From Balneolaceae bacterium (GTDB taxonomy: Bacteria > Bacteroidota > Rhodothermia > Balneolales > Balneolaceae), in assembly GCA_007131725.1 (NCBI GenBank), contig SLPZ01000060.1, positions 1 to 35,552 on the forward strand: 35,552 nt of DNA, written 5' to 3'. A program made the position numbers and the translations under genes. Position 1 is the first letter of the stretch; each line of letters begins with the position of its first letter. The notes below the pieces were generated by a model. The model did not search any database. It was not told where the DNA came from and was given only the letters and a program-made list of their open reading frames with translations. Shown here piece after piece: positions 3,918 to 29,739 of the stretch.

Positions 3918-3957
3918 TGAAGAACCGGAAAATCGTTGAATAGGAGAAACCGGATGG

Positions 3958-4883: not shown

Positions 4884-4976
4884 AAAATTTATCGGTGATA
4901 ACTGGAAATTATTCGAAGATTTAAACCCAAAAAGCCCCAACGGTTTTCTGGGATTAATATAAAAAAACGTGAGTTC

Positions 4977-5142: not shown

Positions 5143-5160
5143 GATCTAAGTTTAAAGAGT

Positions 5161-5196
5161 AAAAAAATGCCGGATGATTTCTCCCCCGGCATTTTT
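5161..5196 (-). terminator. Rho-independent terminator of lon
   Basis: On the minus strand, AAAATGCCGG pairs with CCGGCATTTT across a 12-nt loop and runs directly into a T-tract. It begins about 40 bp after the lon stop codon. The A-run on the other side is compatible with bidirectional function, but no plus-strand gene ends here. Confidence 0.9.
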
Positions 5197-5239
5197 AATC
5201 CAAGTATATGCTGTAAGTGAATTGTCTCCATTCACACAC

Positions 5240-7780: not shown

Positions 7781-7864
7781 GTAATAGGGTTAATTTTTAG
7801 TTCTTTTTATTTAATTAGTAAGATTTGGCAAATAAGGAGCCAAAGCAAGCAATAGTATCATAAC

Positions 7865-7890
7865 GGCAGAACAATCTTTGGGGTTCTGCC
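7865..7890. terminator. Hairpin between the outer-membrane gene and lon
   Basis: GGCAGAAC (7865-7872) pairs perfectly with GTTCTGCC (7883-7890) around a 10-nt loop. It lies about 50 bp past the stop codon of the 7937-9505 gene and about 85 bp before lon, all on the minus strand. The 3' side lacks a proper T-tract, so it may be a weak terminator or a regulatory hairpin in front of lon. Confidence 0.45.
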
Positions 7891-7936
7891 AAATTGTGAT
7901 ATTAATTTTTGTTTATGACAGTTGGGCAGAATTCAG

Positions 7937-9505: not shown

Positions 9506-9611
9506 AACGCGGCACCCGTTTCGCAGCCGTTATTACGTAGACGGGTAAATTGTAGGCTGATTTTAGAGAAGTATTTTAACAATTTTCAATATAGGAAAGT
9601 TTAGTATCAAA

Positions 9612-11891
9612 CTATTCTGAAATGACCTTCAGTTTCGCCGCACGCAGCATCAACGTTTTTTGTCCTCGATTTTTAAAAAATACAACCACTTTCGAGTCTC
9701 TGCCGGAACCGCTTCGCTGTACTATTTTACCGGGCCCGAAAGCTGGATGCAGCACGTGAATACCCGGTCTGAATGGGTCTTCATCGTATTCGTACTCATA
9801 AGTGATATTATTTTTTGAAGATTTTTCCGACTTTTGCGGCTTTTTCCAGTCATATTCAATTTCGCTGAAATTGCCTTTACCTGGTTTGTGGTTGTTATTC
9901 TGGCGAATCGTTGCCCCGGTTTCTGTGCGAACCACCCCGGGATCTACTTCGTCCAGAAACCTCGATCGAACCTGGCGTTGCTCTTCACCAAACTTATACC
10001 TCATTTTGCTGTGGCTGAGGAACAGTTGTTTTTGTGCCCTTGTAATAGCCACATAAAACAGCCTGCGCTCTTCTTCAATATTGGCTTCTTCTCCGTCTCG
10101 CGCACCCATGGGGAAGAGATTTTCCTCCAGCCCCACTATAAACACCACCGGAAACTCCAGGCCTTTAGAAGCGTGCACCGTCATCAGAGTAACGGCCGGG
10201 ATGTTTTCGTCATATTTGTCTGCGTCGGTTATTAATGTGATTTCCTGCAAAAAAGATGCAAGGCTGGGCTTTTTTGTGCTCTGCTGATAGTAGGCGATTG
10301 CATTTTGCAGTTCCAGAACATTATCGCGGCGGGTGAGTGCCTGGGCACTGTTTTCTTCAACAAGGGCTTTCATGTAACCGCTCATTTCCAGCATTTTTTT
10401 TGTGACTTCCAAAATGGCCGTGCCCGATGCAAGCTGAGCTCTCAGCTTGTCAATCATATCCACAAAGCTGCTGATGCGGGATTTTGCCGGTTTGTAAAAG
10501 TCGTACGATTCCACATCATTAATAATACTCCATACACTGCGCCGCTCGGTTCTGGCTTTTTTCAGGATATCGTTGAGCGTTTTATTCCCGATTCCCCGGC
10601 TCGGTTCATTGATGATTCTCAGCAGCGCTTGTTCATCCTCAGGGTTCACCAGAAGTGTCAGATAGGCAACCACATCTTTAATTTCTTTTCGCTGATAAAA
10701 TGACAGCCCGCCCACAAGTTGGTAGTCGATATTTTTCCTGCGAAATGATTCCTCAAAAATCCTGCTCTGATAATTTGTGCGGTACAGTACGGCAAAATCG
10801 TTGAACGCGTAACCGTGCCTCAGTTTCAGGTCTTTGATGTAGTTTGCAATCCGGTTGGCTTCATCCCGCTCGTCAAAATTTTCGAGGAGTGTCACCGTCT
10901 CGCCATTATCGTTATCCGTCCACAGCGTTTTCTGAAGCTGCTTCTCATTTCTTTTGATGATTGAATCGGCGCATTGCAGAATCAGTTTTGTAGAGCGGTA
11001 ATTCTGCTCCAGCGGAATTTCCACGGCGTTTTCGTAATCCGATTTGAAATTCAGAATATTCGAAATGTCGGCCCCGCGAAACGAATAGATGCTCTGGGCA
11101 TCATCACCCACAACACAGATATTCTGATACTTATCGGCCAGCAATTTGGTGACTTTGTACTGGGCGTGATTGGTATCCTGGTATTCATCAATTAAAATAT
11201 ACCGGAATTTATCCTGATATTTTTCAAGCACATCAGGGTTTTCGTTGAATAGTTTAACCGGCTTGATGAGCAGGTCGTCAAAATCCATGGCGTTTGCCTG
11301 TTCCATGCGCACCTGGTAAACATCATAAACCTGGGCGGTAATATCGTCCAGTGTACTGAAAACAAATTTTGTTTTATAAGTATCCGGCAGGATTAATTGG
11401 TTTTTCGCATCGCTGATTTTTCGCTGAATTGTTCTCGGTTTGATCTCTCTCGGATCATAGCCCAGTTCTTTTAAAATCAGCTTGACGGCATTTTCCGAGT
11501 CGCTGGTGTCGTAAATAGAAAAATTTGAGGAAAACCCGATTTTGTCGGCTTCAAACCGCAAAATTTTTGAAAAAATGGAGTGAAACGTTCCCATCCACAG
11601 CTCCGAAGCTTTTTCACCGATTAAGTTTGAGATACGTTCCTGCATTTCCCGGGCGGCTTTATTGGTGAATGTAAGCGCCAAAATATTGTGGGGCATGGCG
11701 TGATGTTTCTGCAGCAGGTAGGCAATTCTATAGGTCAGAACCCTTGTTTTACCGCTGCCCGCACCGGCAACAATCAAAAGCGGGCCTTGTACATGTGAGG
11801 CTGCCTTGCGCTGCTGCTCGTTCAGTTCGCTGATAAAATCGGCGCTTTTTTCCGGTTTTGATGAATCAGGTTGTAGCGTAAATTTTCGCAT
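9612..11891 (-). CDS. pcrA: ATP-dependent DNA helicase, UvrD/PcrA type
   Basis: Superfamily 1A 3'-5' helicase acting in nucleotide excision repair, mismatch repair and transcription-replication conflicts. Seen in the 759-aa protein: Q-motif LNEQQRKAA, Walker A GAGSGKT, Walker B DEYQDTN, motif III GDDAQSIYSFRGA, motif IV EQNYRS, motif V VHASKGLEFPVVF and motif VI YVAITRAQ. The C-terminal part (FRPGIHVLHPAFGPGKI to the end) is the small Tudor-like domain of PcrA/UvrD that contacts RNA polymerase. It is divergent from the toxin-antitoxin pair upstream, sharing a 245-bp intergenic region. The name could equally be uvrD; the family call is firm. Confidence 0.95.
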   Translation of the reverse strand: MRKFTLQPDSSKPEKSADFISELNEQQRKAASHVQGPLLIVAGAGSGKTRVLTYRIAYLLQKHHAMPHNILALTFTNKAAREMQERISNLIGEKASELWMGTFHSIFSKILRFEADKIGFSSNFSIYDTSDSENAVKLILKELGYDPREIKPRTIQRKISDAKNQLILPDTYKTKFVFSTLDDITAQVYDVYQVRMEQANAMDFDDLLIKPVKLFNENPDVLEKYQDKFRYILIDEYQDTNHAQYKVTKLLADKYQNICVVGDDAQSIYSFRGADISNILNFKSDYENAVEIPLEQNYRSTKLILQCADSIIKRNEKQLQKTLWTDNDNGETVTLLENFDERDEANRIANYIKDLKLRHGYAFNDFAVLYRTNYQSRIFEESFRRKNIDYQLVGGLSFYQRKEIKDVVAYLTLLVNPEDEQALLRIINEPSRGIGNKTLNDILKKARTERRSVWSIINDVESYDFYKPAKSRISSFVDMIDKLRAQLASGTAILEVTKKMLEMSGYMKALVEENSAQALTRRDNVLELQNAIAYYQQSTKKPSLASFLQEITLITDADKYDENIPAVTLMTVHASKGLEFPVVFIVGLEENLFPMGARDGEEANIEEERRLFYVAITRAQKQLFLSHSKMRYKFGEEQRQVRSRFLDEVDPGVVRTETGATIRQNNNHKPGKGNFSEIEYDWKKPQKSEKSSKNNITYEYEYDEDPFRPGIHVLHPAFGPGKIVQRSGSGRDSKVVVFFKNRGQKTLMLRAAKLKVISE

Positions 11892-12136
11892 CTTTCGGGG
11901 TTACTTCAATCTTCGGCGGATCGGACTCAAAACTACGAATTATTACGGACGGGATTACACAAAAATTATCGATTGATAAAATCTGTTTTTTCCAGATCGT
12001 AAGTGGATTGTTATTGAATCAAATGAAATTTCCTCAAGCATAGCTGAGTGTAATCTTGATAAAAATATGTAATTCGCTTTTTGAGCGTTTATTTATTAGA
12101 ATTATTCACAGAACTTAATATCCAAATATCAGAAGT

Positions 12137-12373
12137 ATGAACAATCAGCTTAAGCATCGATTAATCGATAAGATTTTGGTCAGTAAAGACGAAAAACTGC
12201 TCTCTGCAATTGATCAGATTTTGGATTCTGTATCTGATCAAACTACCGGCGACGCTCTTACCAAAGAACAAAAGTTGATGCTTGAAATGAGTGAACAAGA
12301 CATTAAGAATAATGAAACCATATCACAGTCGGAGTTAGATAAAGAAGATCTTACATGGCTTCGCGAGAAATAA
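12137..12373 (+). CDS. Putative antitoxin of a RelE/ParE-type system
   Basis: A 78-aa protein with a helical N-terminus (MNNQLKHRLIDKIL) and the C-terminal pattern LTKEQKLMLEMSEQDI...ISQSELDKEDLTWL. I recognise this layout from antitoxins paired with RelE/ParE toxins in Bacteroidetes, where the C-terminal part wraps the toxin. The gene overlaps the next one by 19 nt in another frame, the usual arrangement for an antitoxin translated before its toxin. Autoregulation of the promoter upstream is expected from the family, but I see no clear operator palindrome. It is divergent from the helicase gene. Confidence 0.75.
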   Translation: MNNQLKHRLIDKILVSKDEKLLSAIDQILDSVSDQTTGDALTKEQKLMLEMSEQDIKNNETISQSELDKEDLTWLREK

Positions 12374-12663
12374 TTTGGACGAAAACAGCACAAAAACAGA
12401 GAAGAGCATTTCTGGAATACTGGCAAAAACGGACAGGATCTGCTGATTATTCAATCAAATTATTGACACTCACATCAAAACGAACCTCTTATATCTGTGA
12501 ACACCCGGAATTTGGACAACAATCAGAATTTCCAGATACAAGGGTTACATCTCTTGGCCATTTTAGCATTTATTATAAAATCTCACTCTCTGCCATCATC
12601 ATTACGGCTTTCTGGGATAACCGGCAAGATCCTAAAGATTTATACAATCTATTGAACAAATAA
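12355..12663 (+). CDS. RelE/ParE-family toxin
   Basis: A 102-aa basic protein of the RelE/ParE fold: N-terminal IIWTKTAQKQRRAFLEYW (beta strand plus helix), a central RTSYICEHPEFGQQSEFPDTR, then HFSIYYKISLSAIIITAFWDNRQDPKDL, where the final strand and WDNRQDP motif are typical of the fold. It starts inside the antitoxin gene (ATG at 12355, 19-nt overlap), implying translational coupling. The target (mRNA at the ribosome or gyrase) cannot be decided from sequence. The gene appears intact. The next gene (glycerate kinase) converges on it, with about 50 bp between and no visible terminator. Confidence 0.85.
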   Translation: MASREIIWTKTAQKQRRAFLEYWQKRTGSADYSIKLLTLTSKRTSYICEHPEFGQQSEFPDTRVTSLGHFSIYYKISLSAIIITAFWDNRQDPKDLYNLLNK

Positions 12664-14114: not shown

Positions 14115-14195
14115 AAGATTTTATGTTGAATCGGTTCGAGTGGTTAGCAATTTACAGTTGACAATACGTAAATATCCCGCTACTATTATTGCGGC

Positions 14196-14370
14196 AACAG
14201 GTTCCTGTTTGTTGTGATGAACGGGATGAAAAGGGAATCCGGTGAAAATCCGGAACTATCCCCGTAGCTGTAAGCTCAAATAATGTGTTAACCTCACAGT
14301 ACCACTGTCCGGTTTTTGTAGCCGGGCGGGAAGGTTGTTGACACTGAGTGAGTCAGAAGACCTGCCTGTT
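14196..14370 (+). promoter_or_regulatory. Cobalamin (adenosylcobalamin) riboswitch
   Basis: Strong match to the class: AAAGGGAATCCGGTGAAAATCCGG in the J/P3 region, cccCGTAGCTGTAAG, a CCACTGT...GGGCGGGAAGG segment, and the B12 box GAGTCAGAAGACCTGCC. The closing helix pairs AACAGG at 14196-14201 with CCTGTT at 14365-14370. After the aptamer come two hairpins (14373-14385 and 14385-14403) in the leader that could form the expression platform. It controls the TonB receptor that follows: with bound cobalamin, expression should fall. Confidence 0.96.
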
Positions 14371-14502
14371 TGCTGAATTATTCAGGCTTTCGGAGGAAAG
14401 GCCGGGAATGCAGTTTCGCAACAATCTGTATCTGCGAATTTCATACCCAACTTTTTTTCATCGAAAGCTCATCGGTTAACAACAAAATACAGGACAAAAA
14501 CC

Positions 14503-21011: not shown

Positions 21012-21044
21012 AAAGCCTTGTAAATATAAAATTTACAAGGCTTT
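21012..21044 (-). terminator. Stranded terminator of tRNA-Leu
   Basis: AAAGCCTTGTAAAT pairs perfectly (14 bp) with ATTTACAAGGCTTT around a 5-nt loop, and on the minus strand it is followed by six T. It abuts the 23-bp tRNA 3'-end repeat at 21045, exactly where a terminator for the minus-strand tRNA-Leu would stand before integration. The tRNA itself is now 8.6 kb to the right. The 20844-21011 stretch otherwise shows nothing recognisable. Confidence 0.85.
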
Positions 21045-21067
21045 AGTGCCCAAGAGAGGACTCGAAC
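21045..21067 (+). repeat. att core repeat, left end of the element
   Basis: A 23-bp exact direct copy of 29654-29676, which is the 3' end of tRNA-Leu (acceptor stem and part of the T arm). Beyond 21067 the tRNA sequence is lost. This marks one boundary of the integrated element. Confidence 0.93.
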
Positions 21068-21157
21068 ACCAATACCTTTAAACCTAAAAACCCCTCTAAA
21101 TATGTCAAAAACGCTGTTTATGTAATATAAACCTTTCTTTGAAAGTTACAAATTACA

Positions 21158-21196
21158 GGGTTTGTGCTACCAATGTGCTACCAAGTGTGCTACCAG
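21158..21196 (+). repeat. Integrase arm-type sites, left
   Basis: Positions 21158-21184 repeat exactly at 29563-29589 (27 bp, same orientation). They are made of TGTGCTACCAA units; a third unit (TGTGCTACCAG) follows only here, to 21196. They sit 90 bp inside the left att core. Short direct repeats of this sort flanking the core are the known binding sites for the N-terminal domain of tyrosine integrases. Confidence 0.75.
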
Positions 21197-21211
21197 TTTA
21201 TTATATTTCTG

Positions 21212-21223
21212 ATGACTTATAAC
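21212..21223 (+). promoter_or_regulatory. Shared 12-bp box upstream of the integrase gene
   Basis: ATGACTTATAAC ends 16 nt before the integrase ATG. The same 12-mer occurs at 22505-22516, ending 15 nt before the next gene. It contains TATAAC, which resembles a -10 element. It is a candidate common promoter or operator of the element. Confidence 0.4.
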
Positions 21224-21239
21224 AAAACTTACCAGATTT

Positions 21240-22466
21240 ATGCCTGCAACATTCAAGTTTTATATCCGGGATAACAGGAAAGACGATCGCGGAACTTGCC
21301 CCATCTATCTGAGAATTACGCACAATAGAAAACGTAAATATATCAATACCGGTATCCGGTTAAAGCCCGACCATTGGCACCCAGGCAATGAGCAGGTGCG
21401 CCGGAGTTTCGGCAAAAAACATGAAGTGCATAAAATCAACAAGCGACTTGCACAAATACGCATTGATGCAGAGGATGCTTATTGGGAATTGCATAGTGAA
21501 AATAAAGTCAGTGCCGATGCTATCAAAAAAAGGCTATCGTATTCATCCAAAGACAATTTTTTTACACTTGCCAAAGAATATTTGGACGAAATTAAGCACG
21601 ACAGCTTCTGGACACACAAACAGACGAAAGTAGCTATTGAGAAGATCAAAGATTTTCATGGTTCTGATAATTTACCTGTCAACTTGATTGATGCAGACTT
21701 TTTAACCCGGTTCCAAAACCAGTTAAAGAGAAAAAACAAACCATCAACGATTATAAAAAACCTCGGCTGTATTAGGAATATTCTGGATATTGCGGTAAGG
21801 CAGCACTTAATCAATATTAACCCCGTGAAATCGAATGATTTTACAATGGTTAAGCCCAATAATAGCACTTCAAAGACTAAACTATCACTCTCTCAGATTA
21901 AGGCATTGAAAGAGCTTAACCTGAAACCCGGTTCAAATCTATGGCACGCACGTAATGCCTTTTTGGTATCATTCTATTTTTGCGGAATGCGTTTTGGTGA
22001 TGTGGCTGAACTACGATGGGAAAACTTCAAAAATGGCCGCCTGGAATACGACATGAATAAAACCGGGAATCCGGTAAGTTTACCGGTTAAGGACGGCCCC
22101 AAGCAAATTTTGGACGCTTACAGGGATTTTGATTACAACGGATATGTTTTCCATTTTCTTTCAAATCTTACTGATGAAGAACAAAGCAGGCCCGATATTA
22201 TTAGAAAACGGATAAGCAGTTGGAATGCCTATGTTAATAGTTGCCTTAAAGATATTGCTGAAATGGCCGGGATTAAGGAAAACATTTCAATGCATGTGGC
22301 CCGGCATTCTTTCGCACAGTACGGGGTTAACGATCTGGAAATACCACCTTATAAAATGATGATGCTGTTAGGCCATAAAAGCCTTAAAACTACGATGCAG
22401 TATCTCAAATCCCTGGACTTGAAGGCGGTTGATAGTGCAATGGATTTGATGTTTAATGAACTGTAA
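21240..22466 (+). CDS. int: Tyrosine recombinase / phage integrase
   Basis: A 408-aa site-specific recombinase of the Bacteroidetes (CTnDOT/Tn4555-like) layout. The N-terminal arm-binding domain (about 1-90) contains ITHNRKRKYINTGIRL, then comes a SAM-like core-binding domain (about 100-200). The catalytic domain has the first Arg in FYFCGMRFGDVAEL, the HVARHSF box (H-x-x-R) and the C-terminal GHKSLKTTMQYL carrying the His and the nucleophilic Tyr. All catalytic residues are present, so it should be active. It lies just inside the left att core and reads inward. It would catalyse integration into, and with the HTH protein excision from, tRNA-Leu. Confidence 0.96.
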   Translation: MPATFKFYIRDNRKDDRGTCPIYLRITHNRKRKYINTGIRLKPDHWHPGNEQVRRSFGKKHEVHKINKRLAQIRIDAEDAYWELHSENKVSADAIKKRLSYSSKDNFFTLAKEYLDEIKHDSFWTHKQTKVAIEKIKDFHGSDNLPVNLIDADFLTRFQNQLKRKNKPSTIIKNLGCIRNILDIAVRQHLININPVKSNDFTMVKPNNSTSKTKLSLSQIKALKELNLKPGSNLWHARNAFLVSFYFCGMRFGDVAELRWENFKNGRLEYDMNKTGNPVSLPVKDGPKQILDAYRDFDYNGYVFHFLSNLTDEEQSRPDIIRKRISSWNAYVNSCLKDIAEMAGIKENISMHVARHSFAQYGVNDLEIPPYKMMMLLGHKSLKTTMQYLKSLDLKAVDSAMDLMFNEL

Positions 22467-22472
22467 AAAAAG

Positions 22473-22504
22473 AACCCCGATGGCCTGCAACAGACACCGG
22501 GGTT
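22473..22504 (-). terminator. Hairpin after the integrase gene
   Basis: AACCCCG pairs with CGGGGTT around an 18-nt loop. The A-run at 22465-22470 becomes a T-tract only on the minus strand, so this looks like a minus-strand terminator that would stop antisense transcription running into the integrase gene. On the plus strand it lacks the T-tract. Confidence 0.5.
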
Positions 22505-22516
22505 ATGACTTATAAC
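22505..22516 (+). promoter_or_regulatory. Shared 12-bp box upstream of the 310-aa gene
   Basis: ATGACTTATAAC, identical to 21212-21223 and placed almost the same distance (15 nt) before the start codon. It is likely a common promoter element or binding site for an element-encoded regulator. Confidence 0.4.
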
Positions 22517-22531
22517 GAACAGTAATATACC

Positions 22532-23464
22532 ATGAAAACCGAAGATAATAAACAACTAAGTGTTGAAACTCTTATAAATATAACCAAAGAGCAAGAGGTA
22601 CCACCCTTATATAAAACCAGAGAAATTGACGGTATTATTGTAAAAGAGTACAATTTTATTCAAGAACACCCTGCTATTGTCAATAGTAAAGACTCCATTC
22701 CAGAAATCAATATTAATTCAAAGGACTTTAATTTATTAGCAGCCCGAAAAAATGAGATTGAGAGCCAGATAGAGTTACATCATAAGCACTGCTATAGAAA
22801 TTATTTTGAGATAAAAAATATACGAACTCCAATCTGGCTATATGGGAAATTTGAATATTTCGACCTTGATGAAATTACTGAGGCAGAGAAAGAAAAACTC
22901 TATCATTTCATTTCAGGAATAAAAATTTTGATTTATTGCATAATGGTAGGTGATGAAATGAAAACCTTTCTGGACATGAACAAAGACGATTATCCATCAC
23001 TTGAATTACGTTGCTCTAAATGGCACAAGAAAACAGCCAGATTTGATCTATTTGAGTATGCAGAAGCTATCAAAAGGCCGGCTGATGAAATTCATCGGAT
23101 TGTTACACGAACTACATCGTTGTATCTGGAATACTTAAAAATTCAAAGTGTCTTGTATAGCATTAACATTGAAAAGTTGATTAACACGCTATCTAAGGAT
23201 GATATTTACAGTAAAATTCTAAATGCACCAGAAGGACAAAGAGCCAGGAAAATTACTTTAGTGGAATATTTTTATCGGAACGAAGATTGCCATACTTATC
23301 CAAAAGCGTTTGATGAAGCAAATAAAGTTCACAGAGAGATTGCAGGGAAGCCTATTTATTCAGGTAAAGACGGTTTCAAATCTTTTGAGTCAAGTAAATC
23401 GGTATTTATGAAAGAACAAGAGGGGCAAAAAATACTTAAAGAAATACTTAATCGAATTAAGTAG
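22532..23464 (+). CDS. Protein of unknown function, 310 aa
   Basis: Not recognised. The gene is AT-rich compared with its neighbours and the host genes, which suggests a separate origin. The protein is soluble, with no signal peptide or membrane segment, and is mostly helical by composition. Visible segments are SQIELHHKHCYRNYF (about 77-91), DLDEITEAEKEKLYHFISGI (about 112-131) and a Lys/Glu-rich end (MKEQEGQKILKEILNRIK). There is no obvious nucleotide-binding or nuclease motif. It occupies the slot between the integrase and the HTH regulator, where satellites often carry accessory or phage-interference genes; that role here is only a guess from position. The 12-bp box upstream suggests its own promoter. 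Confidence 0.75.
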   Translation: MKTEDNKQLSVETLINITKEQEVPPLYKTREIDGIIVKEYNFIQEHPAIVNSKDSIPEININSKDFNLLAARKNEIESQIELHHKHCYRNYFEIKNIRTPIWLYGKFEYFDLDEITEAEKEKLYHFISGIKILIYCIMVGDEMKTFLDMNKDDYPSLELRCSKWHKKTARFDLFEYAEAIKRPADEIHRIVTRTTSLYLEYLKIQSVLYSINIEKLINTLSKDDIYSKILNAPEGQRARKITLVEYFYRNEDCHTYPKAFDEANKVHREIAGKPIYSGKDGFKSFESSKSVFMKEQEGQKILKEILNRIK

Positions 23465-23488
23465 TTAATTAAGTAAATACACGTCTAT

Positions 23489-23529
23489 CATACAGTTGAA
23501 ATTGATAACAATAAATTTTCGACTGTATG
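23489..23529. promoter_or_regulatory. Inverted repeat overlapping the start of the HTH gene
   Basis: CATACAGTTGAAA (23489-23501) is inverted at TTTCGACTGTATG (23517-23529), matching at 12 of 13 positions with a 15-bp spacer. The right arm contains the ATG start codon of the HTH gene (23527). It may be the gene's own operator or an RNA hairpin that hides the start. Confidence 0.6.
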
Positions 23530-23814
23530 GAAAATGTAACAATTCTACCCGAATCTAAAATTAGACAGATTTTCCGAGAGGAACAGGAGGCCGTTCTAAA
23601 GCGACTTATCCCATCTATCGTAAGACGTGCGACCTGTAAAAAGTATTTGAGCACAAAAGACCTTCAGGAGTTGACAGGCATGTCTCCCAGGATGCAGAAA
23701 TATCACAGGGATGCTGGCAACCTTCCATATTCTCAGGAAAACGAACGAAGCAAGATTATTTATTCCGCTGATGATGTGGATAAATTTATTCTGGAGCGCC
23801 GGATCGAAGTATAA
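23527..23814 (+). CDS. Helix-turn-helix protein, excisionase/MerR-like
   Basis: A 95-aa small DNA-binding protein. The C-terminal part KKYLSTKDLQELTGMSPRMQKYHRDAGNLP (about 38-67) is a winged HTH of the MerR/excisionase kind, and IIYSADDVDKFILERR is the usual tail that packs on the wing. The N-terminus (ILPESKIRQIFREEQEAVLKRLIP) is a helix possibly for dimerisation. Such proteins accompany integrases in Bacteroidetes elements and act as directionality factors or repressors. The start codon lies inside a 13-bp inverted repeat, consistent with autoregulation. Which of the two roles applies cannot be settled from sequence. Confidence 0.8.
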   Translation: MENVTILPESKIRQIFREEQEAVLKRLIPSIVRRATCKKYLSTKDLQELTGMSPRMQKYHRDAGNLPYSQENERSKIIYSADDVDKFILERRIEV

Positions 23815-23835
23815 CCATGTGAGGGAGATAATAAG

Positions 23836-24030
23836 ATGACTGTAACGAATAAAAAGCAGCAGGCCCGGCGCGATGCACGAACTATTTTTCACTTAAAACA
23901 GCAGTGCAGGCAGCACGGCACCGGCCATAAAACGCTACAAAAAGTATTTATTGGATTGTTGCGGATACATGACAATCACTTGGCACTGTTTGCAGATGAA
24001 ATTCAAATGCAAGAGGGATGCAATGGCTGA
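23836..24030 (+). CDS. Small protein of unknown function, 64 aa
   Basis: Not recognised. It is a basic, mostly helical protein with ARRDARTIFHLKQQC and FIGLLRIHDNHLALFADEIQ. A purine-rich GAGGGAGAT lies 7-15 nt before the ATG, a good ribosome-binding site by the standards of this window. Its last codons overlap the start of the replication ATPase gene by 8 nt (ATGGCTGA), which argues that it is really translated and coupled to that gene. It might be a replication accessory factor; that is inference from coupling only. Confidence 0.65.
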   Translation: MTVTNKKQQARRDARTIFHLKQQCRQHGTGHKTLQKVFIGLLRIHDNHLALFADEIQMQEGCNG

Positions 24031-25633
24031 AAAAAAAGAGAAAGCCCCGACTGTATCGGAAATCCTACTGGAAATTATAGAATTTTCGGCCGTTCTCTTT
24101 CGGGATAATGCCGGTATTGCATGGGCTAAAGTTGATGGGGAATGCCAACCTGTACGATCTACGACCTTTCGGCGGCATATCCAGCGTAAATTTTATCATC
24201 TGGAAGGCAAGGCACCCCATACACAAGCCGTACAAGAGGCCATTGAGCAGGCCGAAGGCAAAGCGTTATTTGAGAGCCGTTTTAACCAGAATGTGAACGT
24301 GAGGGCGGCACTGTTCGACCATAGAATTTTAATCGACTTAGGGGATGATAGTAAGCTATTGGCCGAAGTTACCGAAGATGGATTTGATGTTACCGCAGAC
24401 CATGCCTTTTTTTACCGGCCAAGCGGATTAGAACCCTTACCGATACCAGAGCAAGGTGAAATAGAACTGCTACGGCCATTCATCAACGTTGAATCTGATG
24501 CAGATTTTCGGCTGATCGTATCCTGGATGTTGACGGCACTTCATCCCGGTATCGCTTGCCCGATTCTTGTTTTACAAGGTGAACAGGGATCATCAAAGAG
24601 TACCACATCGAAAGTAATTCGATCACTGATTGATCCCAACACGGCCCCAATCCGCACGGCACCACGAGACGAACGGGAATTAATCATCCAGGGAGAAAAT
24701 TCCCGGATGATCTGCCTGGATAATCTCTCAGGATTAAAACCCTGGCTGTCTGATGCCTTGTGTCGAATCTGCACGGGCGGCGGTTTTTCAGCCCGGAAAC
24801 TATACACCAATAACGAGGAAAAGATTTTTCAGATACGGCGACCGATCATCCTGAACGGGATTGATGATATAGCAACCAGAGGCGACTTACTGGATCGGGC
24901 TATTGTCTTAAATCTGCCTGCCATTCCACAGACTGATCGCAAGGATGAAGGGCGGTTCTGGAAGGAATTTGACCGGGTACGGCCAAAGATTTTCGGTGCC
25001 ATTCTGGATGGTATGTGCAGCGGCCTGAAATACCATGATAATATCCAGTTGTCGAACTTGCCACGAATGGCCGATTTTGCGAGATGGGCGGCAGCATGTG
25101 GCAAGGCCTATGGCTGGGATAATATTATTAACGAGTACAATCGAAATCGCGGAGAGGCGGTTGAAACCGGCCTGGATTCCGATATTCTTGCAACAGCCGT
25201 GCGCAAAATTATGGTCAACTTATCAAAATGGCAGGGCACCGCAACGGAGCTTGTAGAAAAAATTGAGCAGGTATCCGGGGATGTGGATAACAGATACCTA
25301 CCAACGACCAGGACATTAAAAAGCAGGTTGACGAGGTTGTCTCCGGCGCTTCGGCAAGTAGGTATTGTATGGCACCGGGAGCGAGTTGAATCAGGCACGG
25401 TTTATATCATCAAAAAGCCGGTGAATAATGTGCAAGTTGTGCAAGAAGTGCAAGGAGACAATAAAAACAATGGCTTACATACTGGCAGAACCCTTGCACA
25501 ACCAGATAACCTGGCAGAACGTGCAAGGAATCTGCAAGCCTCTAAATCATTGGTAGACAATGAGTCTTGCACAACTGGCAGGACTGGCACAACTGAACAG
25601 GACTTTTTATTTGAAGATAAAGCACCGTTTTAA
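24023..25633 (+). CDS. Satellite-type replication ATPase (VapE/D5-like helicase)
   Basis: A 536-aa protein with start at the ATG 24023 (MAEKKEKAP); AGAGGG lies 5 nt upstream and the preceding small ORF ends across it. The longer open frame from 23951 has no support. Walker A is LQGEQGSSKST, Walker B MICLDNLS, then SDALCRICTGGGFSARKLYTN and PIILNGIDDIATRGDLLDRAI, as in mobile-element ATPases near the primase-helicases of phage satellites (VapE, P4 alpha and D5 relatives). No primase active site is visible in the N-terminal 170 aa. A winged-helix-like part (LKSRLTRLSPALRQVGI) is followed by a low-complexity tail whose DNA holds iteron-like repeats. It probably starts element replication after excision. 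Confidence 0.85.
   Translation: MAEKKEKAPTVSEILLEIIEFSAVLFRDNAGIAWAKVDGECQPVRSTTFRRHIQRKFYHLEGKAPHTQAVQEAIEQAEGKALFESRFNQNVNVRAALFDHRILIDLGDDSKLLAEVTEDGFDVTADHAFFYRPSGLEPLPIPEQGEIELLRPFINVESDADFRLIVSWMLTALHPGIACPILVLQGEQGSSKSTTSKVIRSLIDPNTAPIRTAPRDERELIIQGENSRMICLDNLSGLKPWLSDALCRICTGGGFSARKLYTNNEEKIFQIRRPIILNGIDDIATRGDLLDRAIVLNLPAIPQTDRKDEGRFWKEFDRVRPKIFGAILDGMCSGLKYHDNIQLSNLPRMADFARWAAACGKAYGWDNIINEYNRNRGEAVETGLDSDILATAVRKIMVNLSKWQGTATELVEKIEQVSGDVDNRYLPTTRTLKSRLTRLSPALRQVGIVWHRERVESGTVYIIKKPVNNVQVVQEVQGDNKNNGLHTGRTLAQPDNLAERARNLQASKSLVDNESCTTGRTGTTEQDFLFEDKAPF
25430..25590. repeat. Iteron-like cluster in the 3' end of the replication ATPase gene
   Basis: GTGCAAG occurs at 25430, 25439 and 25448 (9-bp spacing) and at 25521. 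Its complement CTTGCAC occurs at 25493 and 25566, and the variant CTGCAAG at 25532. CTGGCA(G/C) occurs four times (about 25482, 25511, 25575, 25584). The copies fall in different reading frames, so they are not just a protein repeat. This is a candidate origin or regulator-binding region. Confidence 0.55.
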
Positions 25634-25651
25634 ATTCAACCTTAAACAAAA

Positions 25652-25963
25652 ATGAATACCATGATACCAACTGTAAGGCAGATTAATTTATTTGATGACA
25701 ACAATGTCCAGCAGGCAATTCCTTCAAGTAATGTTGTGGATAATTCCAGTGATGAATCAATGCAACCGGCGCAAGAAACCGGGCCGAGGTACGCTGTGAT
25801 TCACAACCGATCAGGCAGGATATTCATTAAAACCGAATCTTTTGAGGAAATTGAGCAACATCTTTTTGAAGAAAATGCAGGCCGTTATACGCTACATGAC
25901 AGAAAGCACAATCAATTCCTGAATGCAGAAATTATTTTTAAATCAAAATATAATAGGCAATGA
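25652..25963 (+). CDS. Protein of unknown function, 103 aa
   Basis: Not recognised. The first half is polar and probably disordered (NNVQQAIPSSNVVDNSSDESMQPAQE); the second half looks folded, with RYAVIHNRSGRIFIKTESFEEIEQHLFEENAGRYTLHD suggesting beta strands around a helix. It starts 18 bp after the replication gene and ends with a 4-nt ATGA overlap with a 32-aa membrane peptide, so the three are probably one transcript. A second ATG three codons in (25661) is an alternative start. Confidence 0.65.
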   Translation: MNTMIPTVRQINLFDDNNVQQAIPSSNVVDNSSDESMQPAQETGPRYAVIHNRSGRIFIKTESFEEIEQHLFEENAGRYTLHDRKHNQFLNAEIIFKSKYNRQ

Positions 25964-26058
25964 CTACCACAGAAATTAAACCTATCAAACCCTGGACGTG
26001 GATAGCGTACATCATGTTTATGATTTTGCTGATTGTGATACTGGCGACACATGGATGA
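25960..26058 (+). CDS. 32-aa single-pass membrane peptide
   Basis: A short open frame, ATG at 25960 and TGA at 26056-26058, encoding MTTTEIKPIKPWTW, then IAYIMFMILLIVILA and THG. The 15-16 residue hydrophobic stretch is a membrane span, with a positively charged N-terminal flank (two Lys). The ATG overlaps the stop codon of the 103-aa gene (ATGA), which strongly suggests coupled translation. Its role is unknown. Options are a holin-like or membrane-signalling peptide, or a toxin-like small protein. It is too short for usual gene finding, and certainty rests on the coupling and the clear membrane segment. Confidence 0.6.
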   Translation: MTTTEIKPIKPWTWIAYIMFMILLIVILATHG

Positions 26059-26108
26059 CACCCCCCGCCCTCAGAAAATTTTTAATGCTATGCTGCAAAC
26101 CGACCGCC
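26057..26108 (+). repeat. Degenerate 52-bp repeat, copy A
   Basis: About 77% identical without gaps (40 of 52 positions by eye) to 28762-28813, starting with GACACCCCCCG and including ATGCTG and ACCGAC. It lies in the gap just before the terminase-like gene. The two copies bracket the small-gene and capsid block. Confidence 0.6.
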
Positions 26109-26157
26109 CTAATTCGTCTCTCACTCTGTTATGAACCCAAAATCTTTTTTTTGAGCT

Positions 26158-26427
26158 ATGAAATTATCCAAAGAAGCTAAGAGATGGTACAACCGGATTA
26201 AACGGGAATACGACATTGACGACAAACCCGGATTACTACTACTCCAGACGGCTTTTGAGGCGTTCGATGAGATGAGAGCCGCGCAAGAGGAGATGGACGG
26301 AAACCCGGTATATACCGACCGTTTCGGCCAACCCCAGGAACACCCGGCCGCAAAAACGGCAAGGGCTTCACGTACTCAGATGCTGGCTGCACTAAAAAAC
26401 TTAGAACTTGAAATCAACCCAGAATAA
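26158..26427 (+). CDS. terS: Phage terminase small subunit, P27-like
   Basis: An 89-aa protein. LSKEAKRWYNRIKREYDIDDKPGLLLL, AFEAFDEMRAAQEEMD, VYTDRFGQPQEHPAAKTARASRTQMLAALKNLEL reproduces the layout of P27-family small terminases (PF05119-type): an N-terminal HTH-like part, the GLLLL-x-x-A helix, and the conserved D-R-x-G-x-x-x-x-H-P-A turn before the last helix. In phages this protein selects the packaging site and feeds DNA to the large terminase. It is shorter than many (110-150 aa), lacking an N-terminal extension. No large subunit follows, so it would redirect a helper's motor to this element. Family call from memory of the motif. Confidence 0.65.
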   Translation: MKLSKEAKRWYNRIKREYDIDDKPGLLLLQTAFEAFDEMRAAQEEMDGNPVYTDRFGQPQEHPAAKTARASRTQMLAALKNLELEINPE

Positions 26428-26437
26428 ACAAACTAAT

Positions 26438-26695
26438 ATGAGAAAACGAAAAATTGATAAAACCGACCCAGTCAAAGAATTAGCAGAAATATACAAACGC
26501 TTCGCACACGCTTTTTTCACTGAAAAAAATGTGGATAAAGCGTTGAAAATTCGCAAAGAGGCCGACCGGATTTTTAAAAAGCATCCTGAATATCTGGAAT
26601 CCGTTCCGGTGCATATAGGCCGGGCTGCTTACATCGACTGGGAACGCTTTATCAAATTCCCGCAAACAAAACACATGAACCCGAAAATTCAATAA
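26438..26695 (+). CDS. Small protein of unknown function, 85 aa
   Basis: Not recognised. The ATG at 26438 (MRKRKIDKTD) is preferred over the upstream TTG at 26408, which would overlap the terminase-like gene. The protein is basic and helical (KELAEIYKRFAHAFFTEKNVDKALKIRKEADRIFKKH resembles a single TPR-like helix pair), with YIDWERFIKFP near the end. It is located between the terminase-like gene and the capsid gene, so a head or packaging role is possible but unsupported by any motif. Confidence 0.65.
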   Translation: MRKRKIDKTDPVKELAEIYKRFAHAFFTEKNVDKALKIRKEADRIFKKHPEYLESVPVHIGRAAYIDWERFIKFPQTKHMNPKIQ

Positions 26696-26697
26696 TT

Positions 26698-26922
26698 ATG
26701 AGTATCGGAGATCAAAACGACTTTTTGAAAAAACACGAAAACAATAAAAAACAAGTATATGCAAACCTTACTGAAGAACAGATAAAGACTGTAGAATGGA
26801 TGGCCAGAAGTTCCGGCCTAAGTTTCGAGGACACGGTAATGATATTGGTTCAATTCACTTTACAGGACTTGGCCCCGGCTGCCAGACGTGCCATAATTGA
26901 AGAACAGGCAAAACGCAACTAA
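26698..26922 (+). CDS. Small protein of unknown function, 74 aa
   Basis: Not recognised. The protein is charged at both ends, with a central helix pair: LTEEQIKTVEWMARSSGLSFEDTVMILVQFTLQDLAPAARRAIIEEQ. The pattern of a helix, a short turn with Gly-Leu-Ser, then a long helix recalls small ribbon-helix-helix or CopG-like regulators, but the beta strand is not clear. It starts 2 bp after the previous stop codon, so it belongs to the same transcript. Confidence 0.6.
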   Translation: MSIGDQNDFLKKHENNKKQVYANLTEEQIKTVEWMARSSGLSFEDTVMILVQFTLQDLAPAARRAIIEEQAKRN

Positions 26923-26925
26923 GTG

Positions 26926-27177
26926 ATGGCTGAAAATGATGAAATCCGGTTTTGCTCTGTTTTGTCGGACGGCGTTCACCTTCCACCGGGAATATGCCAG
27001 TTGACACCTGAAGCATTCAATGGAATCTTTGAATCACTTATTCAGGATCCGGAATGCAACTATGAACAGGCTTACGAAATCATTGAGGAATGCCATAAAC
27101 GCATCTTCAGGAAGCGCCGGTATTCCAGCTACGATTCTTTCCGTAAATGCCGGGCAAAGATGATAAATGGAACTTAG
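26926..27177 (+). CDS. Small protein of unknown function, 83 aa
   Basis: Not recognised. The frame opens with GTG-ATG; the ATG at 26926 is taken as the start (MAENDEIRF). Visible: an acidic start, LPPGICQLTPEAFNGIFESLIQDPECNYEQAYEIIEECHKRIF, and a strongly basic end (RKRRYSSYDSFRKCRAK). Four Cys residues are spread without a metal-binding pattern. It lies 3 bp after the previous gene and 71 bp before the capsid gene. Confidence 0.6.
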   Translation: MAENDEIRFCSVLSDGVHLPPGICQLTPEAFNGIFESLIQDPECNYEQAYEIIEECHKRIFRKRRYSSYDSFRKCRAKMINGT

Positions 27178-27204
27178 TTCCGGTGATATTTGGCAAAATT
27201 CCTT

Positions 27205-27233
27205 GTAAAGTGTGATAGGAGTTCACAACAAAA
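27205..27233 (+). promoter_or_regulatory. Possible promoter for the capsid gene
   Basis: In the 71-bp gap before the capsid gene, TTGGCA is followed after 17 bp by TGATAG, a weak fit to a sigma-70 type -35/-10 pair, ending about 25 bp before the ATG. The gap is longer than the others in this gene cluster, which favours a separate late promoter. Confidence 0.25.
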
Positions 27234-27248
27234 ACCAATCAATTTATT

Positions 27249-28610
27249 ATGGATAAGAAAGAAAAAACTTTACGTGAGCAGCTTGGAGCACTTATCGACC
27301 AGCAGGAAGCCATTGTTAACAAGGCAAAAGCAGCCGATAGGAACTTGAACAGCAATGAAAAAAGAAATTTCGATCACATTGACCGGGAGATAAAACAGAA
27401 AAAATCAGAGCTTGACGATCACATCAACGGCCGAAGTTTTGAAGGACGTGCCCGGTTAAACAAGCAAAATCTATTTGGCGGTGGTTCTGAAATTGACCTA
27501 ACAACCGGTAAACCTTCAGGACGAACTGGCTTATCTGGCAATAAACACGTTGAGGAATGGAAATCATTATCAGAAGGCAGTAAAGGCAAAAGAATCCCGG
27601 TATTGAGTAACAAGGCGCGCCTGGCTGATGTGATAGAAACCAGTGAGTACGGCGGCAGCCCACAGGATTATATTATTGACCGTTACCGGGGCTTTACAGC
27701 CACACGCGGCGCGGACGTGAAAGCCGAAGGGCCAGACCCGATGAGCACATCGGCGGATTCCGCGATGGTTCCGATTGATGTATCATCTGCCATTATTGAC
27801 GAAGCCCGGAACCTTTCGAGAGTGATGCAGGCCGGCGCGCTTACAGTGCCGATGAGTACAAAGGAGTTGACGATCGCACGGATTACACAATCAGCCAGCC
27901 CGCACTGGAAGGCTGAAAACGCAAAAATCACACCGTCTGAAATCAAAACAGAGCCGGTTACGTTCACATCCAAAACGTTGGTGGCCGGTGTAAAATCAAG
28001 TGTAGAACTTAGCGAGGACGCGCAAAATCTTGGAAATGTTGTATTTAGCAATCTTGTAGAACAACTTTCACTTGAACTCGACAGGGCGGCACTGATGGGA
28101 ACTGGCAGCAGCAATGAACCCAGGGGCATACTTCATACCGATGGAGTACAAGAAATTGAAATGGGAGACAACGGAGCTGAATTGGAATCGTATGCACCAT
28201 TTTCAGAAGGTTTTGAGAAAATTCTTTCTGCAAACGGGTTTCCGAATGCTTGTATCTATTCACCAAGAACTTGGGGAGTTCTCGACCGGCTTGTCGATCA
28301 GAACGATCAACCGCTAAATCCACCTATGAGTTTTCGGGATTTAATGCAGCTACCTACATCTCAAATTCCGAATGATATGGTACAGGGATCGGCTGAAAAT
28401 GCTTCTGCTGCTTTTATCGGTGAATATCCCAAACTGATGATAGGAATGAGAACCCGGATTATTCTCGAAGTATCCCGGCACGGATTTGACGGCGACACAT
28501 CAGCATGGGAGAACTTACAGATCATGTGGCGCGCTTACTTGCGGGCTGATGTCCAACTGGCACACCCGGCGCACTTCTGCATTATTAAGGGAATCATACC
28601 AGGAACTTAA
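27249..28610 (+). CDS. HK97-fold phage major capsid protein
   Basis: A 453-aa protein. Residues about 1-65 form a charged coiled coil (LREQLGALIDQQEAIVNKAKAAD, then EKRNFDHIDREIKQKKSEL), the scaffolding-like delta domain of this family. A linker to about 150 follows, then the shell domain: MVPIDVSSAIIDEARNLSRV, TIARITQSASPHWKAENAKI, VELSEDAQNLGNVVFSNLVEQLSLELDRAALMGTGSSNEPRGIL (E-loop and spine helix region), and AFIGEYPKLMIGMRTRI...WRAYLRADVQLAHPAHF at the end. All are typical of HK97-type capsids. No prohead protease gene is next to it, so the delta domain stays on or is cut by a helper enzyme. A strong terminator follows. An encapsulin-like compartment is less likely given the terminase-like neighbour. 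Confidence 0.9.
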   Translation: MDKKEKTLREQLGALIDQQEAIVNKAKAADRNLNSNEKRNFDHIDREIKQKKSELDDHINGRSFEGRARLNKQNLFGGGSEIDLTTGKPSGRTGLSGNKHVEEWKSLSEGSKGKRIPVLSNKARLADVIETSEYGGSPQDYIIDRYRGFTATRGADVKAEGPDPMSTSADSAMVPIDVSSAIIDEARNLSRVMQAGALTVPMSTKELTIARITQSASPHWKAENAKITPSEIKTEPVTFTSKTLVAGVKSSVELSEDAQNLGNVVFSNLVEQLSLELDRAALMGTGSSNEPRGILHTDGVQEIEMGDNGAELESYAPFSEGFEKILSANGFPNACIYSPRTWGVLDRLVDQNDQPLNPPMSFRDLMQLPTSQIPNDMVQGSAENASAAFIGEYPKLMIGMRTRIILEVSRHGFDGDTSAWENLQIMWRAYLRADVQLAHPAHFCIIKGIIPGT

Positions 28611-28617
28611 AAAGAAC

Positions 28618-28638
28618 TTCACTTCTAAAAGAGGTGAA
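28618..28638 (+). other. Hairpin just after the capsid gene
   Basis: TTCACTTC pairs with GAGGTGAA (one G-U pair) around a 5-nt loop, 7 bp past the stop codon. It is not followed by T's. It may protect the capsid mRNA 3' end together with the terminator at 28693. Confidence 0.35.
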
Positions 28639-28692
28639 CTCCATAGGGAAATTATTATTCTTTATTCATGAGTTAGGTTTCCCTTGTGCTTC

Positions 28693-28724
28693 AAAGCCCC
28701 GGACGCCTCATCCGGGGCTTTTTT
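28693..28724 (+). terminator. Rho-independent terminator of the capsid transcript
   Basis: AAAGCCCCGGA pairs perfectly with TCCGGGGCTTT (11 bp, 7-nt loop) and continues into a T-tract. It ends the plus-strand gene cluster of the element. Confidence 0.93.
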
Positions 28725-28761
28725 ATTGATATAAACCCTTATATCAGTTGAACCAGCACAC

Positions 28762-28813
28762 GACACCCCCCGGCTTTCAAAAACTTTTAAGGCCATGCTG
28801 ATTACCGACAGCC
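28762..28813 (+). repeat. Degenerate 52-bp repeat, copy B
   Basis: Partner of 26057-26108. It lies in the non-coding stretch after the capsid terminator. A G-rich tract (GGGGG T GGGGGGGG, 28841-28854) follows 28 bp later and can pair with the C-run of the repeat. Confidence 0.6.
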
Positions 28814-28877
28814 AAAGCAAAATCGCACGCTGTCAAAATAGGGGGTGGGGGGGGTATTGAGTTTCGGGGTGTGAGAT

Positions 28878-29007
28878 CGCGCCGGATTGCTCTCAGGAAT
28901 TGCCAGGCATTATCCAGCAAATAGCACTCATTTTTTTGATGTACTATTATAGGTTACAGAGAGATCGGACGGGAAATCGAAAATTTAAAGCCAGGCAATC
29001 CGGCGCG
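28878..29007. repeat. 13-bp perfect inverted repeat with 104-bp interior
   Basis: CGCGCCGGATTGC (28878-28890) and GCAATCCGGCGCG (28995-29007) are exact reverse complements. GCCAGGCA occurs twice in direct orientation inside or beside the arms (28901 and 28990). The stretch 28611-29015 has no gene. Together with the G-rich tract and the 52-bp repeat it is the most structured non-coding DNA of the element, and a candidate packaging or replication site. Confidence 0.6.
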
Positions 29008-29015
29008 CCGGTTAT

Positions 29016-29483
29016 TTATAAACAGTATGAAACAACATCGTGCTCTTTAGGCCCATAAAATAGAATATGATCGACCAGATCAATGTGAAACAATTGTGCT
29101 GCCTCTCTTAATCTTCGTGTGAACACTTTATCATTTTTACTAAATGATGGGTGTCCGCTTGGGTGATTGTGAGCAACAAGAATACTATCTGCATTTGATA
29201 AGATAGCAGGCTTTAAAACATCCTTCATTTCAATATTGGCGGCATTAAGGCGGCCCACAGCGACCAGGTTGATCGCAGTTACTTCTTTTTGAGTTGACAG
29301 GCAGACAACATAAAAATGTTCTCGGTCTAAATCTTTAAAAAAAGGATAGAGCAACTTGGCAGCAGCCCCAGGTGAGCTTATGGGTTTTTCATATTCCACC
29401 TCTGCCTCTTTGACCATTCGGATTGAAACAACAGATGTGATCTTGGGATTTATTTTTTTTGCGTTCATCAATTCTGTCTCCAT
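29016..29483 (-). CDS. radC: Short RadC-family (JAB/MPN) protein
   Basis: A 155-aa protein with the JAB1/MPN metalloprotease-like domain of RadC: VAVGRLNAANIEMKDVLKPAILSNADSILVAHNHPSGHPSFSKNDKVFTRRL contains the H-x-H-P-S-G...S...D zinc motif. The N-terminal helix-hairpin-helix part of full-length RadC (about 220 aa) is missing, as in most copies on mobile elements. The true function of RadC proteins is unclear. It reads outward-to-inward on the minus strand, directly downstream of tRNA-Leu and the right arm sites, so it may be transcribed from the tRNA promoter. ATG 29483 or the Met six codons on could be the start. Confidence 0.88.
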   Translation of the reverse strand: METELMNAKKINPKITSVVSIRMVKEAEVEYEKPISSPGAAAKLLYPFFKDLDREHFYVVCLSTQKEVTAINLVAVGRLNAANIEMKDVLKPAILSNADSILVAHNHPSGHPSFSKNDKVFTRRLREAAQLFHIDLVDHILFYGPKEHDVVSYCL

Positions 29484-29562
29484 TTTTTTGTGGTTATTTG
29501 AGACAGCGTATATTGACCGGAGCGCAAAAAATAGCGAAGAATTAAGAACCGGAATATTTACC

Positions 29563-29589
29563 GGGTTTGTGCTACCAATGTGCTACCAA
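29563..29589 (+). repeat. Integrase arm-type sites, right
   Basis: Exact 27-bp copy of 21158-21184 in the same orientation, 64 bp inside the right att core. It contains two TGTGCTACCAA units. Confidence 0.75.
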
Positions 29590-29653
29590 AAATAGAGGGG
29601 ATGTTTTAAAGTTATTGAAAATAATGGCTTTATGAATTAAAAACCATTTCCAA

Positions 29654-29676
29654 AGTGCCCAAGAGAGGACTCGAAC
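29654..29676 (+). repeat. att core repeat, right end of the element
   Basis: A 23-bp direct copy of 21045-21067 that forms the 3' end of the intact tRNA-Leu gene. Integration here restores the tRNA with element-borne sequence. Confidence 0.93.
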
Positions 29677-29739
29677 CTCCACGACCATAAGGTCACATGC
29701 TCCTGAAGCATGCGCGTCTACCAATTCCGCCACTTGGGC
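29656..29739 (-). tRNA. tRNA-Leu (anticodon CAG)
   Basis: 84 nt without encoded CCA. The acceptor stem is GCCCAAG with CTTGGGC, discriminator A. A class II tRNA with GGCGGAATTGGTAGACGC in the D arm, anticodon loop TTCAGGA between CATGC and GCATG, a long variable arm (TGACCTTATGGTCGT) and T loop GTTCGAGTC. It is intact, although an 8.6 kb element is joined to its 3' end. Confidence 0.97.

Follow-up and report, generated by a model that had tools for sequence, protein, structure and literature searches.

What purpose can a phage capsid gene serve in an integrated element of only 8.6 kb that seems to carry almost nothing else of a phage head? The question is raised by positions 21045-29676 of SLPZ01000060.1 from a Balneolaceae bacterium, a stretch of 35,552 nt which, taken whole, we call the window; it belongs to an assembly (G000 in our genome collection) with a completeness of 88.6%. 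We propose that the element is a phage satellite which depends on a helper and has kept a reduced head module, and we give this reading, mechanism included, a probability of about 0.7. An initial annotation of the locus had already suggested satellite status and a reduced layout, and the comparison with portal-less elements of similar size presented below supports both. Features of the element lie on the plus strand unless stated otherwise.

Integration at a tRNA-Leu gene

The element is integrated at a tRNA-Leu gene and measures 8609 bp from core to core. Its ends are marked by the exact 23 bp core repeats described by the initial annotation, the left copy at 21045-21067 and the right copy at 29654-29676, where it forms the 3′ end of tRNA-Leu(CAG) (29655-29739, minus strand). 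By our own arithmetic, about 1e-6 such exact pairs would be expected by chance in 11.5 kb. An empty site was found in G007, a relative of the same genus, where the tRNA-Leu adjoins a flanking gene 88% identical to that of the window; when the two window flanks are joined they align to G007 in a single piece (1308 bp, 80%). This check covered 25 other loci, among which only G007 had a tRNA inside the available flank (≤1.5 kb). A terminator-like hairpin on the minus strand immediately outside the left core (21012-21044) can be read as the original terminator of the tRNA-Leu gene. Both ends of the element also carry tandem TGTGCTACCA sites with a spacing of 11-12 bp, at 21163, 21174 and 21186 on the left (within 21153-21195, a 32-nt repeat at 97%) and at 29568 and 29579 on the right (within 29558-29589); they are probably the arm sites of the integrase. 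The tyrosine integrase itself (21240-22466, 408 aa) is intact as annotated, with three Pfam domains above cut-off (PF17293, PF13102 and PF00589). Apart from the tRNA and one match at chance level, an Rfam scan of the element returned no family.

The replication gene (24023-25633) encodes 536 aa from an ATG, or 560 aa from a TTG at 23951. It had been annotated as a replication ATPase; a Walker A-like motif can indeed be recognised by eye, while the protein has no named family (it hits no Pfam family, its NCBIfam and PHROG matches do not go below E 0.06, and a PDB search with the replication-protein profile gave E 0.04 at best), and its replication role is a presumed one. Proteins of three relatives are 51-67% identical to it. 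The relatives of this protein in G090 and G019 were not counted as capsid satellites; PF05065 finds no capsid in either genome, the G019 contig stopping 1.4 kb past the replication gene. The G090 copy (L025 8659-11271, G090:C2) lies near a tRNA-Leu, without a capsid gene and beside proteins that by eye resemble MobC.

A capsid gene and a small terminase gene

The capsid gene (27249-28610) encodes a full-length HK97-type major capsid protein of 453 aa, matching TIGR01554 with 98 bits (cut-off 27.5) over positions 11-384 of the 385 in the profile, and PF05065 with 78 bits. The profile match thus runs nearly end to end, in keeping with the annotated HK97 fold, and the best PDB sequence match is HK97 gp5, at E 0.035. 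The gene is followed by a terminator with an 11-pair stem and a T run (28693-28724) and preceded directly by a gene for a small protein (26926-27177) with relatives in three of the elements introduced below (L020, L021 and L023; tblastn, phmmer). Family scans on ten open reading frames of the element, with phmmer and local profiles for the rest, found no gene for a large terminase, a portal or a protease and none for tail or lysis, in agreement with the initial annotation.

Upstream of the capsid gene, an 89-aa protein (26158-26427) is supported as a P27-type small terminase (TerS), weakly by sequence and with backing from its predicted fold. TIGR01558 matches at E 1e-5 with 25.5 bits against a cut-off of 45.6, PHROG_83 at E 0.003, and all three TerS family members match TIGR01558. 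An AlphaFold2 model of the protein reaches a pLDDT (predicted local distance difference test) of 86, and its first 23 structure matches in BFVD comprise 19 named terminase small subunits and 4 unnamed proteins, with query TM (template modelling) scores of 0.60-0.78 and E values between 1.7e-4 and 0.038; a single match reaches E ≤0.001. A search of PDB structures with the same model gave nothing at E ≤0.001; HK97 TerS appeared at rank 50 (TM 0.64, E 2.8), and the higher ranks were other proteins with lower query TM. When the TerS alignment was compared by hhalign with four phage TerS, no match was significant. The small-terminase-like gene of the initial annotation can be retained on these terms. 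Two short genes of no assigned function follow, one for an 85-aa partner of TerS (26438-26695; 46% over 74 aa to its counterpart in L023) and one for a 74-aa protein (26698-26922), recorded as an open reading frame.

Portal-less elements in related bacteria

We took a census of capsid (PF05065) and portal (PF04860) genes in 128 genomes of the order, which yielded 11 capsid genes in 7 genomes and 5 portals in 5. Three of the capsid genes have a portal within 5 kb (G081:C1, G076:C2 and G049:C14). The G017 capsid gene lies on a 6-kb contig beside protease-like and head-closure-like genes, the portal of that genome being on another short contig. The other seven lie close to an integrase gene and have no neighbouring portal: the window's genome, G081 (an uncultured Aliifodinibius metagenome-assembled genome) and G088 (Fodinibius roseus) contribute two each, and G074 (Fodinibius salsisoli) one. 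The search tool places G081, G088 and G074 in the window's family, and F. roseus belongs to the Balneolaceae. PF04860 has no match in G000, G074 or G088, and its only match in G081 is on another contig.

Besides the window element these loci are L019, which comes from the window's genome too and sits in a tRNA-Asn gene; L020 (G088:C28) and L122 (G088:C15); L021 and L023, both from G081; and L022 from G074. Core-to-core lengths are 8417 (L019), 8899 (L020), 8747 (L021) and 8708 bp (L023), close to that of the window element. G088:C15, with 13-bp repeats 8990 bp apart, and G074 were left out of the size count, their repeats being too short to trust. TerS was recognised in the window element, L019, L020 and L023, and in L022 two proteins bear a weak resemblance to the TerS-like protein encoded by the G081 prophage (E 1.8e-6 and 1.7e-4). 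PHROG scans of the 79 proteins of the six other elements, in which the best 25 of 32, 38 and 31 families were considered and weaker matches may be missed, listed no portal or tail family; among the matches listed, a large terminase occurs only in G088:C15 and a head protease only in G088:C28.

In a capsid tree of 18 rows, a single clade (100/99) unites five of the seven satellite capsids. The window capsid pairs with the capsid of plasmid pCD630 (93/89, below the 95 mark, the letter make-up of pCD630 being unusual), and G088:C15 groups with G017 (98/93) and HK97. The G081 and G076 prophages have capsids that group with those of VP882 and S-CBS3 (98/98), while the long branch of the G049 prophage is placed weakly (76/89) in the same half as the window capsid and the five satellites. 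On this tree, a recent transfer from the G081 or G076 prophages does not seem to be the source of the window capsid or of the five-member clade. Searched without its window row, the capsid alignment matched four loci of the genome collection, none of them a new element, and one distant IMG/VR contig.

One could imagine a full phage from which the genes for large terminase, portal, protease and tail have simply disappeared, with capsid and TerS left by chance. Both are phage genes, prophages with fuller head modules do occur in the order, and the placing of the G049 branch and the grouping of G088:C15 with the fuller G017 module point the same way. We nevertheless regard such decay as very improbable. 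All seven portal-less capsid genes are in open frame with an integrase close by, the five measured elements span only 8.4-8.9 kb, and most of the seven capsids share a single clade. The attachment arms of the window element are intact, and its TerS, judged by a pN/pS ratio (non-synonymous to synonymous differences) of 0.22 between the window and L019, is under purifying selection; the partner gene gives 0.16. The initial annotation had named full prophages with genes lost in between, as nearest relatives, as a finding against its reading. The comparison does not refute that reading: by TerS, replication gene and layout the nearest relatives are small portal-less elements, of similar size wherever the ends could be set, and the capsid tree, whose forks are weak, is compatible with this. 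The comparison suggests that the portal-less layout is one kept in related bacteria rather than what remains of a decayed virus.

The order of the genes bears on another explanation, by which the capsid would be cargo with a cellular or defence role, such as a nanocompartment or a phage decoy, in an island that moves by some other route. The host assembly yielded no P27-type helper, and the replication-gene relative in G090 stands beside MobC-like proteins with no PF05065 capsid, as such an explanation might have it. The capsid gene follows the TerS gene, however, in the window element, L019, L020 and L023, and a compartment has no need of a terminase. With the matching non-coding block described below, and with no PADLOC match better than E 0.02 among the nine element proteins scanned, we consider a cargo role very improbable.

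Several features of the related elements may be recorded here. L122 (about 1637-10640) combines an integrase, a helix-turn-helix protein, a replication initiator and a capsid of the HK97 type with a large terminase (PF04466, 40 bits); no portal was found. In L020 the capsid gene is followed by a ClpP-like head protease (10819-11538) close to the prophage protease of a relative, and a protein-kinase-like gene (11831-12511; PF00069, 35.5 bits) occupies a cargo position between the head genes and the attachment site. L021 and L023, at different sites of one genome, have 72 bp in common at 87.5% near their right ends (12019-12090 and 11910-11981, respectively).

A candidate packaging site

The window element and L019 are alike in a peculiar way. 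Their TerS proteins are 89% identical and the TerS partner genes 79%, whereas the integrases share 38% and the capsids 21%, and the replication gene of L019 is of another kind. At the DNA level the two elements align over 645 bp at 81% (26058-26701), including about 100 non-coding bases before TerS, and again over 231 bp of non-coding DNA after the capsid gene at 86% (28764-28992). Within these segments a 52-bp repeat flanks the TerS-capsid unit. Copy 1 (26057-26108), just upstream of TerS, is 77% identical to copy 2 and conserved in L019; copy 2 (28762-28813) belongs to a non-coding block that also contains a G-rich tract (28762-28992) and has its counterpart at the same place in L019. Both elements repeat about 50 bp of shared non-coding DNA on either side of the unit. 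Since L019 shares TerS and these sites with the window element while its replication gene differs, the sites go with TerS and are better explained by packaging than by the origin of replication. We therefore infer from the sequence comparison that copy 1 is a candidate site for recognition by TerS and that the block at 28762-28992 is the best candidate for the packaging site. The 52-bp repeat, the paired arm-type repeats and a RadC-like gene (see below) are additions to the initial annotation.

The block, taken as 28700-28992, was sought in 195 genomes and matched at E ≤0.01 in 14. Five of the 13 matches outside the window's genome were inspected and proved to lie in ordinary host DNA, where no neighbouring satellite gene was found. 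The block had no match in phages.

A possible helper and mode of action

The G081 genome holds, in addition to its two small elements, the head module of a P27-type prophage with large terminase, portal, ClpP-like protease and capsid (phmmer) and a TerS-like protein (PHROG_83, E 2.2e-5); by eye, a lysis-like gene lies upstream of the module and tail-like genes downstream. The protease of this prophage is the closest match to the satellite protease of G088:C28 (E 6e-63). For the window element, the likely partner is an infecting phage. In the G081 prophage, three tRNA genes (L097 16550-16784) immediately precede the gene for the large terminase.

The proposed mode of action is as follows. Infection by, or induction of, a P27-type phage would lead the integrase to excise the island, and the excised DNA would be amplified by the island's own replication protein. 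The satellite TerS would then bind the non-coding sites at 26057-26108 and 28762-28992 and, once bound, bring the helper's large terminase to the satellite DNA. The satellite capsid protein, alone or mixed with that of the helper, would form a head suiting about 8.7 kb, and the helper would supply portal, protease, tail and lysis functions to complete the particle.

Head volume scales with the triangulation number, HK97 being at T=7, and the HK97 genome is 39.7 kb. On this scaling, 8.7 kb would suit a T=3 head; alternatively, a head of about 35 kb would be full with four copies. The sequence favours neither. A structure prediction from the capsid alignment, headed by L021 and not by the window capsid, had a mean pLDDT of 45.

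A number of points weigh against this interpretation. The element is known from its sequence, and the host assembly contains neither a PF03354 large terminase nor a PF04860 portal, so that no resident P27-type helper was found. The TerS assignment has a match below cut-off, non-significant hhalign comparisons and a single structure match at E ≤0.001, and no TerS was recognised in L021. The window capsid is without a close relative: its pN/pS values of 0.66-0.78 to the others, at 24-27% identity and with nearly saturated silent sites, are uninformative (other capsid pairs give 0.26-0.53, with silent sites at or near saturation). Finally, the packaging-site proposal draws on two elements of one genome; the matches to the block listed for the other 194 genomes were all weak, at most 52 bases long, and one exact 20-base piece of it is absent from IMG/VR.

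Comparison with known satellites and the role of the capsid

In terms of function, the closest precedent for a satellite with a single capsid gene is Ccm of SaPIbov5, a cos-type Staphylococcus aureus pathogenicity island (SaPI) in which a single HK97-like protein resizes helper capsids (PMC5052747). The window element likewise encodes a single HK97-like capsid homologue and no other shell genes that we could find, with TerS in addition. The comparison is one of descriptions: SaPIbov5 has a cos site like that of its helper while the window element encodes its own P27-type TerS and comes from another phylum, and Ccm has been demonstrated experimentally whereas the window capsid is known as a sequence. 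The contrast drawn by the initial annotation, by which satellites either steal the helper capsid or carry a fuller head module, omits this case and has to be amended accordingly (PMC5052747). Its description of the element as capsid-encoding holds as far as the gene is concerned; as to a self-made shell, a mixed or resized helper shell fits equally well.

It is accordingly quite conceivable, at somewhat less than even odds, that the satellite capsid co-assembles with the helper capsid, shrinks the helper's heads and blocks the helper. This is a version of the satellite interpretation in which only the role of the capsid differs. SaPIbov5 provides the model, its lone HK97-like homologue resizing phage heads with the helper capsid as target and making no SaPI-sized capsids alone (PMC5052747), and the window element too has a single capsid gene with no portal or protease found. 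It is difficult to see, however, why TerS should be 89% identical in the window element and L019 and the capsids only 21% if both elements use one type of helper, to whose shell the capsids would have to be fitted alike. Moreover, the G088:C28 element brings its own head protease, and neither the window capsid nor the five-member clade groups with the G081 and G076 prophage capsids, bearing in mind that the helpers need not be those prophages.

Phage-inducible chromosomal islands (PICIs) average 9.5 kb (PMC10803314). The pac-type SaPIs and PICIs use their own TerS to redirect the helper's large terminase (PMC10690885, PMC5052747) and alter the size of helper capsids by means of CpmAB, Rcm or similar proteins (PMC12409344). 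The window element resembles them in its integrase, presumed own replication, attachment repeats and size of roughly 10 kb, has a TerS-fold protein that may act in the same way, and differs in carrying a capsid gene where they have resizing proteins; the PICIs were compared by description and not gene by gene. Capsid-forming PICIs (cf-PICIs) encode capsid, protease, portal, connectors, both terminase subunits and HNH (PMC10690885) and average 14 kb (PMC10803314). Like them, the window element is integrated and has its own capsid protein and small terminase; at 8.6 kb, with no portal, head protease, connectors or large terminase found, it falls outside their definition. The Streptomyces satellites MulchRoom and MiniFlayer are described with their own capsids, both terminase subunits, portal, scaffold and adapter, and no obvious replicase (PMC10690885); a satellite-encoded capsid is the common feature, the head set of these two being fuller. 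Phage-inducible chromosomal minimalist islands (PICMIs) of Vibrionaceae, reported to have excision and replication genes, no identifiable packaging or capsid genes, and concatemers in helper heads (PMC10803314), are likewise small satellites with excision and replication genes, but they insert next to fis, whereas the window element lies in tRNA-Leu and has capsid and TerS genes. In the literature on satellites with their own capsid or terminase, and on this phylum, we found no report of a layout with capsid and TerS only, in a coverage that leaves out most subscription papers.

Might the element descend from a cf-PICI-like ancestor that shed large terminase, portal and protease and came to rely on a compatible helper? 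The evidence is found in IMG/VR, where 54 contigs hold relatives of the replication protein at 29-42% identity. A portal occurs on ten of these, nine of which also have capsid and large terminase, and seven of the nine are 10-16 kb long and possibly fragments. The low identity of the replication proteins tells against such a descent, as do the contig capsids, at most putative kin of the window capsid, and the modules, which have clearly been swapped between elements; we look on it as less likely than not. Single-sequence searches of IMG/VR gave no close relative of the capsid, the replication protein or TerS. The nine contigs (L045, L048, L049, L053, L054, L058, L059, L065 and L068), in which the replication relative is found beside portal, protease/capsid and large terminase, are possibly cf-PICI-like elements.

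In a search of phage and plasmid records, the window capsid had its best full-length matches on Clostridioides difficile plasmids with an HK97-type capsid gene, pCD630 among them. Plasmid pCD630 (L007) is 7.9 kb long and has genes for an HK97-type capsid and, near it, an HNH protein; its nine annotated genes include neither a large terminase nor a portal. The HNH protein has a further match to a PHROG with the label terminase small subunit (E 3.7e-16), and no P27-type TerS was seen. It is a free plasmid with helicase and HNH genes, whereas the window element is integrated, and the capsids are about 24% identical. Plasmids of this kind are a frequent class among those of C. difficile, with 378 in one survey (PMC6807378). 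They may be satellites in plasmid form. A wider but doubtful extension of the satellite interpretation would be a type of satellite that encodes only a capsid and a DNA-selecting factor, builds its own shell for about 8-9 kb and uses it with the portal, motor and tail of many helpers. Capsid, TerS, protease and large terminase genes are freely mixed between elements in one bacterial family, and the type would reach beyond one phylum because the nearest tree kin of the window capsid are the 7.9-kb C. difficile plasmids, whose layout is similarly reduced.

If the satellite interpretation is true, the element fills a gap between satellites that reshape heads and those that build whole heads, and shows how little of a head module is retained in elements of one bacterial family. 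The window element and L019, with TerS and a putative site but not the capsid in common, would form a natural experiment on packaging choice and head size, and a testable role is suggested for the capsid gene of pCD630-like plasmids.

Other genes and minor observations

Between the integrase and replication genes lie a 310-aa protein of no family (22532-23464; no Pfam, NCBIfam or PADLOC match, best PHROG E 0.083) and a helix-turn-helix protein that may be excisionase-like or a regulator (23527-23814; PHROG_668 E 7.5e-5, HTH_17 below cut-off). The replication gene is followed by one for a 103-aa protein (25652-25963), 55% identical over 67 aa to a protein of L019 in the same genome. Near the right end, a RadC-like gene with a JAB domain (29016-29483, minus strand) matches NF000642 at E 1.6e-30, below the equivalog cut-off, and is presumably cargo. 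Promoter-like matches in the element were as frequent as expected from shuffled sequence and were not used. Elsewhere in the window, a cobalamin riboswitch (14182-14383, 113 bits) precedes a gene at 14503 that by eye resembles a TonB-dependent receptor.

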